A stretch of DNA of 43,572 nt. It comes from Clostridium sp. AM49-4BH (GTDB lineage: Bacteria; Bacillota; Clostridia; Lachnospirales; Lachnospiraceae). Position 1 is the first letter of the stretch; the number at the start of each line of letters is the position of its first letter. The stretch is taken from NCBI RefSeq assembly GCF_003478335.1, contig NZ_QUFB01000025.1, positions 1 to 43,572 of the forward strand, written 5' to 3'. The translations under genes and the position numbers were made by a program. Below are positions 5,938 through 43,572 of the stretch, one piece after another. The notes beneath the pieces were generated by a model, which saw only the letters and a program-made list of their open reading frames with translations, was not told where the DNA came from and did no database searches.

Positions 5938-7893
5938 AGATGATATTCAAAAGGCAGATGACCATATTCTTGTTTGTCTGTCCGCAGCACCCTCGAATCT
6001 AAAAATAATAGATACAGCAGCAAAGATGGCAAATGCGCTGCAGGCGCGTTTTACGGCTCTGTATGTGCAGACTGGTACAAAAGCAGAAGCCATGGATAAA
6101 GAAAAGCTGGAAGAACATATCCGGTATGCGGAAACACTTGGGGCAGAAATAGTAATGACCCATGGGGAAAATGTGCCCGTGCAGATTGCAGAATATGCCA
6201 GACTTTCCGGTGTTACAATAATTGTTATAGGACAAAGCAATGCCAGACGAAATCACTTTTTCAGCAAATCAACTTTGACGGAAAAGCTAATTGAAATTAT
6301 ACCGGACATTGATATTCATATAGTTCAGGATGCGGTGAAAAATAGAACCTATTCGAAACGATCATTTACAGAACTTGCGGAAAAACCATCTGTAAAAGAC
6401 TATGTCTTAACAGCTTTTATATTTGTAGTATGTACTTTAATCGGTCTATTGTTTCAAAAGCTGAATTTCACGGATACAAATATTGTAACTATATACATTT
6501 TTGGGGTTTTGATTACTTCAATCGTGACAGATGGATATTTTTGCAGCATAGCCGGGTCTTTTTTAAGCGTATTTTTATTTTGTTTTTTTCTTACAGAGCC
6601 GAGAATGTCTTTTCAGACGTATGCGGTGGGATATCCGGTAACATTTCTTATCATGCTTATTTCGTCTGTGCTTACAGGAACACTTGCGGCAAAGCTGAAA
6701 ACACATGCAAAACTGTCCGCGCAGCTTGCCTTTCGTACACAGATTCTGTTTGACACAGATCGCCTGCTGCAAAGGGAAAAAGGAGAAACGGAGATTCTTG
6801 GAGTTGCCTGTACACAGTTGATTCGCTTATTAAACCGCAATATTACAGCGTATATTGTGAAAAATGGAACTTTATCAGAGGGGAAACTTTTCTCTGGGGA
6901 AAAAGAAAATTCGGATGATTTTTTGACGCAAGAAGAGCAGGATGTAGCCAGATGGACCTACGAAAACAGACAGCGTGCCGGTGTATCCACACATCATTTT
7001 CCCCAGGCCAAATGTTTATATCTGGCAATTCGAAGTGGGAATAATGTTTATGGCGTAATTGGGATACCGATGCAAAAAGAAACACTGGATTCTTATGAAT
7101 ACAGTATTCTGCTTTCTGTGATAAATGGATGTGCACTTGCTATGGAGAACGCACAAAACGCTATGGAAAAAGAGAAAAATGCGATTTTAGCCAAAAATGA
7201 GCAGCTCCGTGCAGATCTTCTCCGGGCAATCTCTCATGATCTTCGGACCCCGCTCTGTTCCATTTCCGGCAATGCAGATATGCTCCTTGGCAACAGCGAA
7301 CGCTTGGACGAAGCTACTAGGCATCAGATTTACACCGACATCTATGATGATTCCGAATGGCTGATCGGAGTTGTGGAGAATCTTCTTTCCATTACCAGGT
7401 TGAATGATGGAAGATTGAAATTTAAATTTACGGATCAGCTTTTGGATGAAGTGATTGCGGAGTCACTTCGGCATATTAGCCGGAAACATGATGATTATAA
7501 AATTATGACAGACTGTGAAGAACTTGTTCTTGTACGTATGGATGTACAGCTTATTATACAGGTTCTGGTAAATTTAATTGATAATGCAATAAAATATACG
7601 CCGCCAGGTCCGTAATCTGCATTCGGGGAATTAAAACAGAGGGGAAAGCACAGATAAGTGTAGAAGATAATGGACCTGGAATTCCGGAAGAGATGAAGTC
7701 ACATATTTTTGAGATGTTTTATACAGGAAAAACAACAGTTGCAGATAGTCATCGGAGTCTGGGACTTGGTTTGGCACTTTGCCATTCTATCATAGAAGCA
7801 CATAACGGAACTCTGATTCTTACGGATCATGCTCCCCATGGGTGCAATTTTATTTTTACATTACCATTAAGTGAGGTGACATTAAATGAATAA
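5921..7893 (+). pseudogene. KdpD-like sensor histidine kinase, frameshifted
   Basis: A membrane histidine kinase of about 657 residues when repaired. Domains in order: a universal-stress-protein-like domain (about 10-130), four transmembrane helices of the DUF4118 type (about 150-245), a GAF-like region (about 275-410), HisKA with the phospho-acceptor SHDLRTP (about 437), and HATPase with NLIDNAIKYTPPG and DNGPGIP. The N-terminal KdpD domain with its Walker A motif, present in E. coli KdpD, is absent. The frame breaks at about 7608, where one extra T in GGTCCG would restore ...PPGSVICIRGIK through to the G-box. Without repair the protein ends inside the ATP-binding domain and would be inactive. 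The end overlaps the regulator gene by 8 bp. Confidence 0.88.
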
Positions 7894-8611
7894 AGCATTA
7901 ATACTTGTGGTTGAGGATGACAGGCCCATACGTAACCTGATCATTACTACATTAAAAACACATGATTATAAATATCTGGCAGCAGAAAACGGATCTTCAG
8001 CTATTCTGGAAGCTTCGTCTCATAATCCGGATATTGTTCTTCTGGATCTGGGGCTCCCGGATCTAGAAGGAGTAGAGGTAATAAAGAAAATTCGGACATG
8101 GTCGAATATGCCGATTATTGTGATCAGTGCCAGAAGTGAGGATACGGATAAAATAGAAGCATTGGATGCAGGGGCTGATGATTACATTACAAAACCATTT
8201 TCAGTAGAGGAATTACTTGCACGTATCCGTGTCACTCAAAGGAGGCTTGCTATAACACAGACAGGGGATCAGCTGGAAACCTCTATTTTTGAAAATGGGG
8301 AATTAAAGATAGATTATACTGCCGGCTGCACATATCTGAAGGGAGAAGAACTACATTTGACGCCCATAGAGTATAAGCTGCTCTGCCTTTTATCTCGCAA
8401 TGTGGGCAGGGTACTGACACATACCTATATTACCCAGCGGATTTGGGGACGATGTTTGGAAAATGATGTCGCTTCTCTTAGGGTTTTTATGGCAACACTG
8501 CGGAAAAAACTAGAACCTGAGAAAAACGGGGAAAAATATATCCAGACGCATATTGGTATTGGATATCGTATGCTTAGAATTGAGAAAACAGAGCATGAGA
8601 CAAACAGCTAA
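7886..8611 (+). CDS. kdpE: KdpE-like response regulator (OmpR family)
   Basis: A 241-residue two-component regulator. The receiver domain (about 1-120) has the acidic pair after VVED, the phosphorylated Asp in VLLDLGLPD (about 53), the conserved Thr/Ser region (IVISARS) and the Lys in YITKPFS. The C-terminal winged helix (about 145-235) has the OmpR-type LTPIEYKLLCLL recognition region and ends in GIGYRM. Translation is coupled to the kinase by an 8-bp overlap. Kinase and regulator sit behind ktrBA instead of kdpFABC, so they probably control Ktr-type uptake through the repeats at 3435-3479. The symbol follows family similarity, not proof of kdp control. Confidence 0.88.
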   Translation: MNKALILVVEDDRPIRNLIITTLKTHDYKYLAAENGSSAILEASSHNPDIVLLDLGLPDLEGVEVIKKIRTWSNMPIIVISARSEDTDKIEALDAGADDYITKPFSVEELLARIRVTQRRLAITQTGDQLETSIFENGELKIDYTAGCTYLKGEELHLTPIEYKLLCLLSRNVGRVLTHTYITQRIWGRCLENDVASLRVFMATLRKKLEPEKNGEKYIQTHIGIGYRMLRIEKTEHETNS

Positions 8612-8654: not shown

Positions 8655-8660
8655 ATTAGT

Positions 8661-8795
8661 TGCGTGGCACAGTATCTGAGATGATGTTGTCATATCCAGT
8701 ATGAGGATTAAGTCATATGCTTTTGGTTTGAGCGGAAATGTTCAAGCAAACTGCCAGTGGTTATTCAGAGGGAAGCGTTTTCGCTTCCGTTTTAT
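8661..8795 (+). ncRNA. 3' portion of a structured RNA with terminator (truncated copy)
   Basis: About 130 bases match the RNA at 40817-40951 with about five substitutions. It ends in the same intrinsic terminator (GGAAGCG, TTTT loop, CGCTTCC at 8771-8788, then T-rich). The match starts abruptly at 8661; the 5' half seen in the other copy, including the strand that would pair with CCAGTG, is absent, and no promoter is visible in the 50 bp after the regulator gene. The stem TGGCA/TGCCA of the other copy is kept here as TGGCA/TGTCA through a G-U pair, which supports RNA structure. It is probably a truncated or fused copy. The RNA family was not identified. Confidence 0.6.
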
Positions 8796-39138: not shown

Positions 39139-39186
39139 AGCCTTGATATGATAATATATTAAAATGTATCAAGGCTCTTTTCTTTT
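39139..39186 (+). terminator. Terminator-like hairpin between xis and int
   Basis: AGCCTTGATA (39139-39148) pairs perfectly with TATCAAGGCT (39167-39176) around an 18-base AT-rich loop, followed by CTTTTCTTTT. The loop side contains TATGAT (39147-39152), a possible -10. A hairpin with the same position and tail precedes the second integrase start at 43564. Confidence 0.7.
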
Positions 39187-39202
39187 GGAAGGAGTTGATT
39201 TT

Positions 39203-40336
39203 ATGGGCAAAGATCTAAGAGGAAGAGAGCTTGGCGTAGGAATATGTCAGCGAAAAGATGGGCTGTATACAGCTAGATTTATTAGCAAGCGCACAGGAAG
39301 GTCTGTCCAAAGATATTTTCCCAAGTTGCAGGAATGTCGTAATTGGTATGCTGATGCAAGGTTTCAAGATGAACATGGTGAAATCAATGCCGGTGGTGAT
39401 ATGACAGTCACAGCCTGGTTTGAGTATTGGCTTAATAATATAAAAGGCGATACTATCAGGCCAAATACGATAAGAAATTATAGGGAAAGGTTTGAACACA
39501 ATATCAAAGATTGCATAGGGAATATGATGTTATCTGATGTAAAACCAATGCATTGCCAGAATGTTCTAAATCAGATGAAAACCAGATATAGGACATCGAC
39601 AATATATCAGGCAAGGATTACTTTGTATTGTATGTTTGCGGATGCGGTTGAGAATGATGTGATCTCAAAAAATCCGGTTACAAAAGCAGTTAAATACAAT
39701 ATTGGTAAAGATCCTAAGAAAATAAGGGCATTGACAGTGCATGAACAGAAAAAATTTCTGGAAGTGGCGAAAGACAGCAGCAATTACAATCAGTTTGCGT
39801 TTGTATTACAGACTGGATTAAGAACAGGCGAAATGATTGGCCTTAAATGGTCTGATATTGATTTTGAAAAGAAGGTCGCACATATTCAACGATCAATGGA
39901 ATATCGGCATTCTGTTGGTGAATGGAGAATAGGCAAACCTAAAAGTAAATCGGGATACAGGGATGTTCCTTTGACGGAAGAAGCGATTCGATTATTGAAA
40001 GCACAGAAGGAAAAGATGACAAAAATGAAAGTTGTTAATATGGAATTTTCAGAGTTTGTGTTTTTGAATCGTAAGGGCGAGCCTACAAAGAACTCAGCGT
40101 ACGACTCAACATTGTTCAAATTGTGTGATAAGGCTGGTATAGACAGATTTTCGATGCATGTACTTCGACATACTATGGCTACACGGTGTATTGAAGCAAA
40201 TATGCGACCTAAAACCTTGCAGGTGATTCTCGGACATTCCAATGTGGGAATTACTATGAATCTTTATGTTCATGTGACTGAGGAGGAAAAGGTAAAAGAG
40301 GTAGAAAAGATAGAAAAAGCCCTAAAAATTGTGTAG
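39203..40336 (+). CDS. int: Tyrosine integrase (Tn916-like)
   Basis: A 377-residue site-specific recombinase. It has an N-terminal arm-binding domain (MGKDLRGRELGVGICQRKDG ... TARFISKRTGR), a SAM-like core-binding domain (about 75-160), and a catalytic domain with Arg in QTGLRTGEMIGLKW (about 218), HVLRHTMATRC (His and Arg, about 325), LGHSNVGITMNLYVHV with the nucleophile Tyr. ATG 39203 is chosen for the GGAAGGAG site upstream; the frame to 39164 crosses the hairpin. With Xis it moves the element; the attachment site should lie just past its end. Confidence 0.93.
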   Translation: MGKDLRGRELGVGICQRKDGLYTARFISKRTGRSVQRYFPKLQECRNWYADARFQDEHGEINAGGDMTVTAWFEYWLNNIKGDTIRPNTIRNYRERFEHNIKDCIGNMMLSDVKPMHCQNVLNQMKTRYRTSTIYQARITLYCMFADAVENDVISKNPVTKAVKYNIGKDPKKIRALTVHEQKKFLEVAKDSSNYNQFAFVLQTGLRTGEMIGLKWSDIDFEKKVAHIQRSMEYRHSVGEWRIGKPKSKSGYRDVPLTEEAIRLLKAQKEKMTKMKVVNMEFSEFVFLNRKGEPTKNSAYDSTLFKLCDKAGIDRFSMHVLRHTMATRCIEANMRPKTLQVILGHSNVGITMNLYVHVTEEEKVKEVEKIEKALKIV

Positions 40337-40708: not shown

Positions 40709-40740
40709 TTGACAAATGGATTACATGGGCATAATATAAT
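40709..40740 (+). promoter_or_regulatory. Promoter of the structured RNA
   Basis: TTGACA at 40709-40714 is perfect. The -10 may be TAATAT (40732-40737, 17-bp spacing) or the perfect TATAAT (40735-40740, 20-bp spacing). Transcription would start near 40745. Confidence 0.55.
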
Positions 40741-40744
40741 AGTA

Positions 40745-40951
40745 GAAAGCACTGGACATCCGCACAAAGGATGTAAAATATTTGTGGATTTGCTATAGTG
40801 ATACATTATAGCGACCTGCGTGGCACAGTATCTGAGGTGATGTTGCCATATCCAGTATGAGGATTAAGTCATATGCTTTTGGTTTGAGCAGAAATGTTCA
40901 AGCGAACTGCCAGTGGTTATTCAGAGGGAAGCGTTTTCGCTTCCCTTTTTT
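40745..40951 (+). ncRNA. Structured RNA of about 200 nt with intrinsic terminator
   Basis: Between the promoter and the terminator (GGGAAGCG 40926-40933, TTTT, CGCTTCCC 40938-40945, then six T) no protein is encoded. The RNA can fold as a multibranch: CACTGG (40750-40755) with CCAGTG (40910-40915) closes ACATCC/GGATGT, GCTATA/TATAGC, TGGCA/TGCCA and ATCC/GGAT hairpins. The 3' 135 bases recur at 8661-8795 at about 96% identity, with a pair preserved as G-U, so the structure is under selection. It may belong to a known Firmicutes family such as 6S or raiA, which I could not confirm. It ends 18 bp before the nuclease-like gene. Confidence 0.6.
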
Positions 40952-40969
40952 ATTTAGAGAGGAGTACAA

Positions 40970-41587
40970 ATGGGAAAATCTGCGATTTTGAAGAAGATAC
41001 ATAATGCTGCGAAGAATTATCAGAGATATTTGGCTGGAAAAACTTTTATGTATGTATATGAAGGAAAAAGCATTGAAGTAGTTTTTAAAAATTCCTCATT
41101 TTTACATTTAACTGGTGTAAATACGAAATTAAGGGCAAAAGAGTTTTATAAACATGCGAAAACTAAGAATGGATTAAAAGTACAAGAGTTTTTCTTTGAT
41201 AAAAATCATCCATATGATCTGGCAGAAAAAAAGACGGATCATTTAGAGGATTTATATAGGATTACGAATATGGAAGTTTTGATCACAGAGGATGTGGTTA
41301 CCTTTACAGCAAATTACAAGATAGGTATTACAGATTTGCAGTTTATTTTATTGTGTGGAGAAAACAGGGATAAGCACGGAAAATTGATTGATGATTGTCT
41401 GGTGCCATATTCTTTTCGGATAGAACAAATTGGAAATGAAAAGTTCGGAGAATTATATGAAGTGGATTTCATTTTTTGTAAGCAGACCAATGAATCAAAA
41501 TATGAAATAATATCCTATAAGGGGGATAAGGAAATGGGCACAATACCGGAAGCAATAAGGATGAAGATTAGTGATGATTTGGTATAA
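40970..41587 (+). CDS. PBECR4-domain nuclease-like protein
   Basis: A 205-residue protein resembling the PBECR4 domain (phage Barnase-EndoU-ColicinE5/D-RelE-like nuclease 4). Recognisable stretches are KTFMYVYEGKSIEVVFKNSS, FLHLTGVNTKLRAKEFYKHA, the KKTDHLEDLYRITNMEVLIT region and the later YEVDFIFCK. Related folds include toxins that cut RNA; the catalytic residues cannot be assigned from sequence alone. AGAGGAG lies just upstream of ATG 40970. The gene starts 18 bp after the RNA terminator, so its expression should depend on terminator read-through, as in type III toxin-antitoxin loci. It could instead be an effector or phage cargo nuclease. Confidence 0.68.
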   Translation: MGKSAILKKIHNAAKNYQRYLAGKTFMYVYEGKSIEVVFKNSSFLHLTGVNTKLRAKEFYKHAKTKNGLKVQEFFFDKNHPYDLAEKKTDHLEDLYRITNMEVLITEDVVTFTANYKIGITDLQFILLCGENRDKHGKLIDDCLVPYSFRIEQIGNEKFGELYEVDFIFCKQTNESKYEIISYKGDKEMGTIPEAIRMKISDDLV

Positions 41588-43563: not shown

Positions 43564-43572
43564 ATGGGTAAA
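43564..43572 (+). CDS. Start of a second integrase gene (partial, three codons)
   Basis: AAGGAG at 43551-43556 and ATG 43564 followed by GGT AAA give M-G-K, the same start as the integrase at 39203 (MGKDLRGREL), behind the same type of hairpin. The reading is cut by the window edge, so identification rests on the leader, not on the protein. It suggests a second integrative element directly to the right. Confidence 0.5.

Follow-up and report, generated by a model that had tools for sequence, protein, structure and literature searches.

A structured RNA and terminator directly upstream of a PBECR4 nuclease-like gene in Clostridium sp. AM49-4BH: a probable type III-like toxin-antitoxin unit

The stretch of Clostridium sp. 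AM49-4BH DNA considered here (43,572 nt; hereafter the window, meaning the whole stretch) carries near its 3' end, on the forward strand, a promoter, a structured RNA, a terminator and a PBECR4 gene, confirming the order of elements given in a preliminary description made from the sequence alone. A sigma-70 type promoter (TTGACA-17 nt-TAATAT; 40709-40737) scored 10/12 in a consensus scan in which the promoter count across the region was no higher than in shuffled sequences, and by eye TTGACA-17-TATTAT occupies the matching position of a plasmid homologue (L001). It is followed by the proposed RNA antitoxin (approximately 40745-40955, the ends being inferred from the promoter and terminator), by an intrinsic terminator (40923-40955) formed of a hairpin at 40923-40948 and a T-run to 40955, by what its sequence suggests is a probable ribosome-binding site (AGAGAGGAG, 40956-40964), and by the gene for a 205 aa PBECR4 protein (PF18813; 40970-41587), a predicted endoribonuclease and the proposed toxin. 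The ATG at 40970 lies 14 nt past the end of the T-run at 40955 and 21 nt past the hairpin, near the gap of 18 bp originally given.

An integrase gene (39164-40336) lies shortly 5' of the unit, and the scan of 10 proteins of the upstream phage-like element identified RecT, SbcC-like, primase/helicase and integrase genes. Adjoining the unit is a helix-turn-helix transposase-like gene (PF13936; 42018-43331, reverse strand), which we take to belong to IS30, and a second integrase gene apparently starts at 43564, its leader similar in style to that of the integrase gene at 39203. A truncated second copy of the 3' part of the RNA and of the terminator hairpin is found at 8660-8788 on the forward strand (5 mismatches over 129 positions relative to 40816-40944). 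It lacks the 5' half, and no ORF of at least 80 aa directly follows it until 9087. This copy sits shortly past a response-regulator gene (7886-8611), approximately 32 kb from the intact copy and on the opposite side of the phage-like element; it could represent a repeated attachment site or the remains of an older unit. Between 8900 and 9090, 5' of a 463 aa phage gene at 9087 (phrog_6241), what resembles a promoter was noticed by eye, with two hairpins and their T-runs after it, an arrangement that looks like another short non-coding leader.

The RNA at 40745-40955 has a minimum free energy (MFE) of -77.1 kcal/mol (z -6.0) and none of 200 shuffled sequences was equally stable, a result that was maintained when the terminator was removed (40745-40921; z -4.5, 0/200). 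No Rfam family, drum (RF02958) included, matched the window RNA at its gathering score, and a match to a housekeeping RNA such as 6S, named at the outset as a refuting result, was not obtained. The seven matches at E ≤ 10 scored far under the respective gathering cut-offs, and those that did best on the plus strand fell on the terminator. PADLOC returned no match.

The protein matched PF18813 with an E value of 6e-26 and a score of 92.3 bits, the curated cut-off being 27. At E ≤ 1 the Pfam scan returned PBECR4 and a sub-threshold PH_29 match alone, with none to ToxN/CptN/TenpN, Abi or HEPN families, in agreement with the earlier statement that PBECR4 is not a ToxN relative. Its predicted structure (pLDDT 90.2, pTM 0.87) had no PDB match at E ≤ 0.001 in a fold search, which gave weak RelE similarity only. 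Across 77 full-length proteins His46 and Gly49 were invariant (77/77), with His46 in predicted helix 43-48, the second helix of the protein; S148 was invariant in 32 aligned close relatives and was not among the columns at least 75% conserved over the 77 proteins. In BECR and PBECR RNases a conserved His sits in the core's N-terminal helix, to which helix 43-48 may correspond, and a Ser/Thr near the C-terminus belongs to the active site. PBECR domains of phage polyvalent proteins are described, in the available text of PMC5512222, as predicted BECR RNases with an active-site His, and it is plausible that His46 would be that residue.

A blastn search of plasmids gave one good relative of the window RNA, which is 71% identical across 86% of the query and lies on the Butyrivibrio proteoclasticus plasmid pCY360, where it ends 10 bp 5' of a PBECR4 gene whose product is 51% identical to that of the window. 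An alignment-based scan then yielded 22 genome loci and two viral contigs, and in the 23/24 of these with upstream sequence visual inspection showed an RNA-like segment and what resembles a terminator hairpin 5' of the PBECR4 start (L021 is cut by a contig end, the RNAs of L022 and L023 are shortened and L007 fails the automatic terminator test). Two RNA classes were distinguished among these first loci, class A (the window and L001-L005) and class B (L006-L020 and L022-L025). The expectation that homologues of the window RNA would lie next to PBECR4 genes was borne out, class A RNAs adjoining such a gene on the Butyrivibrio plasmid and at four genome loci (L002-L005), with a short, weak PBECR4 remnant (E 0.006; scored as absent in the count of downstream genes below) in a further class A genome (L161). 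The placement of the unit as cargo just outside an integrase was correct for the window, but no integrase was found among the tested neighbours of the class A loci L001-L005. At L004 a Zeta-toxin/AAA-like gene (PF06414; 5640-6239) lies directly 3' of the RNA-PBECR4 unit.

Comparison of six class A sequences supported a structure that includes two pseudoknots absent from the single-sequence fold of the window RNA. Across 32 proposed pairs all 192 of 192 cells were paired, 12 pairs were changed on both sides, and none of 500 shuffles equalled the cells paired, the double changes or the covariation score; the observed number of further pair types was reached by 467/500 shuffles, and slid registers gave 27-50% pairing. 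All the elements lie on the forward strand. A closing helix (helix 1; 40750-40755 with 40910-40915, present in 6/6 sequences) encloses a first pseudoknot at 40757-40786 (helices 2 and 3), in which the stem 40757-40761/40769-40773 is followed by an A-rich linker and the loop 40763-40768 pairs with 40781-40786, a hairpin at 40792-40812 (helix 4; 40792-40796/40808-40812) and a second pseudoknot at 40850-40874 (helices 5 and 6; stem 40850-40853/40861-40864, loop 40855-40860 with 40869-40874). Hairpin H6 was left out of the pair count, its alignment register being unsure. Compensatory changes were found in the first pseudoknot, and L161, as a seventh relative, has both pseudoknots and keeps all five helices checked.

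In order to survey PBECR4 genes independently of the RNA we searched with PF18813, which matched 56 of 392 genomes of one order (54 above the cut-off), 3 of 299 genomes of the phylum and all 12 genomes bearing the first loci. Up to nine matches were found per genome (G004; six in G003), some being pieces of one gene, and each of these two genomes has differing RNA classes. Together with the earlier loci this gave 101 distinct PBECR4 genes, after exclusion of re-fetched duplicates, the fragments L049 and L052 and the contig-edge cases L021, L072 and L081; 98 had at least 300 nt upstream. These were compared with 252 mechanical ORFs of >120 aa in the same loci, which are not annotated genes, and start codons were called by rule, wrongly in some cases (L044, L077, L107). 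A strong terminator ≤40 nt from the start preceded 86/98 PBECR4 genes vs 6/252 control ORFs, any terminator within 90 nt preceded 91/98 vs 80/252, and a promoter scoring at least 10/12 was found for 70/98 vs 27/252. The pairing of an RNA with PBECR4 is therefore wider than first proposed, most PBECR4 genes carrying an upstream RNA and terminator. Folding energy of the RNA body without the terminator was weakly unusual across the family (mean MFE z -1.19 for the PBECR4 upstream RNAs vs -0.74 for controls; z below -3 in 3/98 vs 20/252), which counts against the toxin-antitoxin reading given below.

The RNAs of the 101 genes fell into class A (6), B (21), C (27), D, which is drum (22), E (4), F (3), G (4) and 'other' (14), labels B to G being assigned by regular expressions, Rfam matches and eye, and 'other' including the viral pair L024/L025 (class B-like), contig-edge cases and divergent RNAs. 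The RNAs of classes F and G are possibly diverged forms of drum; one class G RNA (L117) scored 41.6 bits with the drum model, whose cut-off is 43. Though at the same position 5' of the gene, the classes have by eye no obvious common sequence.

Drum, reportedly first described by Weinberg et al. in 2017, provides an independent test of the association, its Rfam model having been made by others. Using cmscan, RF02958 was found directly 5' of PBECR4 in 5/20 loci and in 7 of another 20, the latter seven including the four loci L152-L155, which are on plasmids of Enterococcus and Streptococcus suis. Run over the 392 genomes surveyed above, the RF02958 model picked out 25 places. Of these, 22 exceeded the cut-off, and 17 of the 22 lay immediately 5' of a PF18813 match (15 intact and two broken genes); two further matches preceded broken PBECR4 pieces (L130, L132), one (L128) had by eye a short N-terminal PBECR4 stub downstream that gave no HMM match, and of the other two, L140 had no gene downstream and L137 a different gene. 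Amongst the three places below the cut-off, that in G074 was 5' of PBECR4 and L139 and L144 were not. From its position ahead of PBECR4 genes, drum seems to belong to the same system as the window RNA. At L128 (G335:C6) drum and its terminator precede about a dozen PBECR4-like codons fused to a short hydrophobic peptide with a Lys/Arg tail that resembles a type I toxin, and at L155, on an Enterococcus faecalis plasmid, an annotated AbiH-family gene lies 3' of the drum-PBECR4 unit.

Covariation was also found in class C (19 RNAs, 26 pairs), with 98.4% of cells paired and 14 pairs changed on both sides, and here loop 1 pairs with tail 3, loop 2 with tail 2 and loop 3 with tail 1. Without use of an alignment these three loop-tail pairings, in that order, were fully complementary in 17, 15 and 18 of 18 distinct sets, compared with shuffled means of 5.8, 4.6 and 14.1 and with 0, 0 and 2 of 10,000 shuffles equally high. 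Non-cognate loop-tail pairs were fully complementary in 10, 3, 0, 0 and 1 of 18, and the first of these, loop 2 with tail 1 (10/18), is a real ambiguity. Most class B RNAs have two local loop-tail pseudoknots; in counts made without a control, the first had at least five pairs in 20/22 RNAs parsed and the second in 19/19 parsed. Neither pseudoknot was parsed in L105, and L024/L025 are without the first. Class E has tandem H-type units, both of which pair fully in L048 and L102, one of two in L106 and neither strictly in L113. The statement that the RNA has no tandem repeats was true of the window RNA, in which none were found, and not of all its relatives, as Tandem Repeats Finder (TRF) reported 55 nt in 2.1 copies in L157 and 84 nt in 2.0 copies in L105; TRF found no array in the L057 RNA.

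The RNA class followed the protein tree, requiring 12 changes compared with a shuffled mean of 47.3 (0/200 shuffles as low), a test which, like other shuffle tests, is inflated by near-copies and related sequences. Class A formed one clade with 100/100 support (five full-length rows). There were 76 ORFs that reached 180 aa and had 380 nt of DNA in front of them; 69 of these had a class A-G RNA and seven were 'other'. Of the seven, L024 and L025 are class B-like, a strong terminator together with an RNA-like segment is present at L095, L099 and L109, and at L107, whose start was miscalled, repeats and a terminator can be made out by eye. L103 is hence the only one of the 76 clearly without an upstream RNA and terminator, and a class C RNA match lies downstream of its ORF on the same contig. 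Shorter ORFs, which are broken, cut by a contig end or have a miscalled start, carried a class A-G RNA in 18/22 cases. Viewed from the RNA, the genes after the 22 drum matches were intact in 15 cases, broken in four and absent in three. The 38 class C matches were followed by 18 intact genes, three broken and three cut by a contig end, with two at a contig end without a gene, one that is itself a second RNA further upstream and 11 with the gene absent. This association count is partly so by construction, since 14 of the 19 RNAs used to train the class C model (R2) come from the 392 searched genomes; for the 24 class C matches outside the training set, eight were directly 5' of a detected PBECR4 gene and two of a remnant. 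The four class A matches gave three genes scored intact, of which that in G003 has an in-frame stop, and one absent or remnant, the R1 matches in G002-G004 being training sequences. Such an asymmetry of decay would be expected if the gene were harmful without the RNA and the RNA harmless without the gene.

Protein relatives were found in records titled Lachnospiraceae, Clostridia, Ruminococcus and Selenomonas and in one Muribaculaceae MAG. On plasmids, a drum-type query gave 20 records (19 Enterococcus, one Streptococcus) and a class C query 80 (74 Enterococcus, three Pediococcus, one Lactococcus, one Lachnospira and one Eubacterium eligens), 55/80 of the latter being typed as conjugative; in 6/6 plasmid loci inspected by eye (L152-L157) the gene was preceded by what looks like an RNA and by a hairpin resembling a terminator. 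Judged by names and annotation, some of the Enterococcus plasmids carry resistance genes.

Taken together we consider it probable that the unit in the window is a type III-like toxin-antitoxin unit, in which both the toxin and the RNA antitoxins would be new. The argument is built on sequence, namely gene order, homology, an RNA structure with covariation, co-occurrence, the agreement of RNA class with protein clade and the asymmetry of decay, and from it we infer the RNase activity and toxicity of PBECR4, its binding and neutralisation by the RNA and the trigger. Counting against this reading are the lack of tandem repeats in the window RNA, the class C matches with no PBECR4 gene after them, the weakly unusual folding energies, a fold search that gave weak RelE similarity alone and the absence of a PADLOC match. 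A single promoter would drive the pseudoknotted RNA, most transcripts ending at the terminator so that RNA is in excess, and occasional read-through would give a little PBECR4 mRNA, setting a high ratio of RNA to toxin. PBECR4, as a predicted BECR-type, metal-independent endoribonuclease toxin, would be bound by the RNA and held inactive, probably with the A-rich pseudoknot linkers in the active site. If phage takeover or loss of the element were to cut off the supply of RNA, the nuclease, as the more stable partner, would be freed and growth would stop. Far more tentatively, PBECR4 may be a large superfamily of RNA-controlled RNase toxins whose antitoxins, drum included, consist of serial pseudoknots that contain A-rich linkers. 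The outermost loops and tails pair crosswise, first loop to last tail and last loop to first tail, in class C as judged by covariation and in class B as judged by eye only. This would close the RNA into a ring, which could hold several toxins on a single RNA that stays unprocessed, whereas the repeats of ToxIN are cut up.

The most serious competitor, which we nevertheless regard as unlikely, is that the RNA is a cis-acting leader, an attenuator or riboswitch-like RNA sensing a signal and controlling read-through into an ordinary mobile-element nuclease gene. The terminator directly 5' of the ORF at most loci would suit such a role, and the authors of the AbiF work, in the available text, first suggested that their upstream RNA works in the manner of a riboswitch and then treated it as antitoxin-like (PMC12373285); a leader fits poorly, however, with several RNA classes lacking obvious common sequence at one position, with tandem copies in some RNAs and with RNAs that sit beside broken or absent genes. 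Less probable still, with only a slim chance of being right, is an active ribonucleoprotein in which the RNA, as cofactor or guide, directs or activates cleavage by PBECR4. The agreement of RNA class with protein clade speaks for such a pair, and AbiF toxins with their ncRNA are described in the available text of PMC12737573 as Cas13 ancestors, yet no variable spacer-like segment was noticed and the class C loops are complementary to the RNA's own tails. That a free-standing regulatory RNA lies beside the nuclease gene by chance, as the gene-less RNAs (3/22 drum and 11/38 class C matches with no PBECR4 downstream) might suggest, is contradicted by the co-occurrence counts, by the same order at most PBECR4 loci examined and the plasmid loci inspected, and by the independent finding of drum, and has a negligible probability.

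If the toxin-antitoxin reading is true, drum, an orphan among Rfam RNAs, would gain a function, and the few toxins that are neutralised by RNA would be joined by a new superfamily of toxins with several classes of RNA antitoxin. It would also offer a reason for the presence of a nuclease gene on Enterococcus plasmids and in gut Clostridia. Within the literature searched, part of it available as incomplete text, nothing linked drum or PBECR4 to an RNA antitoxin and the name 'PBECR4' was not found, and earlier reports may exist.

Type III systems are defined, in the available text of a review (PMC5086642), by a single promoter, an RNA placed first, a Rho-independent terminator and an endoribonuclease gene, with the RNA pseudoknotted, and the type III-like order put forward in the preliminary description agrees with this account. 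The window and its family share the order promoter-RNA-terminator-nuclease with ToxIN, CptIN and TenpIN as there described. As far as the DNA sequence can tell there is one transcription unit with a single promoter and the RNA 5' of the toxin gene; a Rho-independent terminator separates RNA and gene in the window and most of the family; pseudoknots occur in classes A and C (by covariation) and, less strictly, in B and E; and two tandem RNA copies occur in some relatives (L157, L105). In contrast to type III systems, the proposed antitoxin of the window is not encoded as tandem repeats, and in contrast to ToxIN, CptIN and TenpIN the proposed toxin is PBECR4, with no ToxN-family match by sequence, and class C RNAs have long-range loop-tail pairing of the first loop with the last tail. 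Because the window has neither tandem repeats nor a ToxN-family toxin, we file the unit as type III-like rather than as ToxIN, CptIN or TenpIN. AbiF, e.g. RCd22-abiF of C. difficile, offers a precedent for an Rfam RNA (RF03085) and terminator 5' of a non-ToxN RNase toxin, according to the available text of PMC12373285 and PMC12737573, but the window protein has no Abi or HEPN match, and RF03085 had no match in the window or in 51 scanned loci. AvcID, in the partial text available, likewise has an antitoxin made of RNA, and its toxin, a deaminase, does not resemble ToxN. Drum RNAs, like the window RNA, lie 5' of PBECR4 genes, although the window RNA itself has no drum match. The PBECR section of PMC5512222 describes no RNA partner, and the word 'noncoding' is absent from the main text in the part available; the PBECR domains of phage polyvalent proteins set out there resemble the window protein as predicted BECR RNases with an active-site His, whereas the PBECR4 of the window is a solo protein preceded by an RNA.
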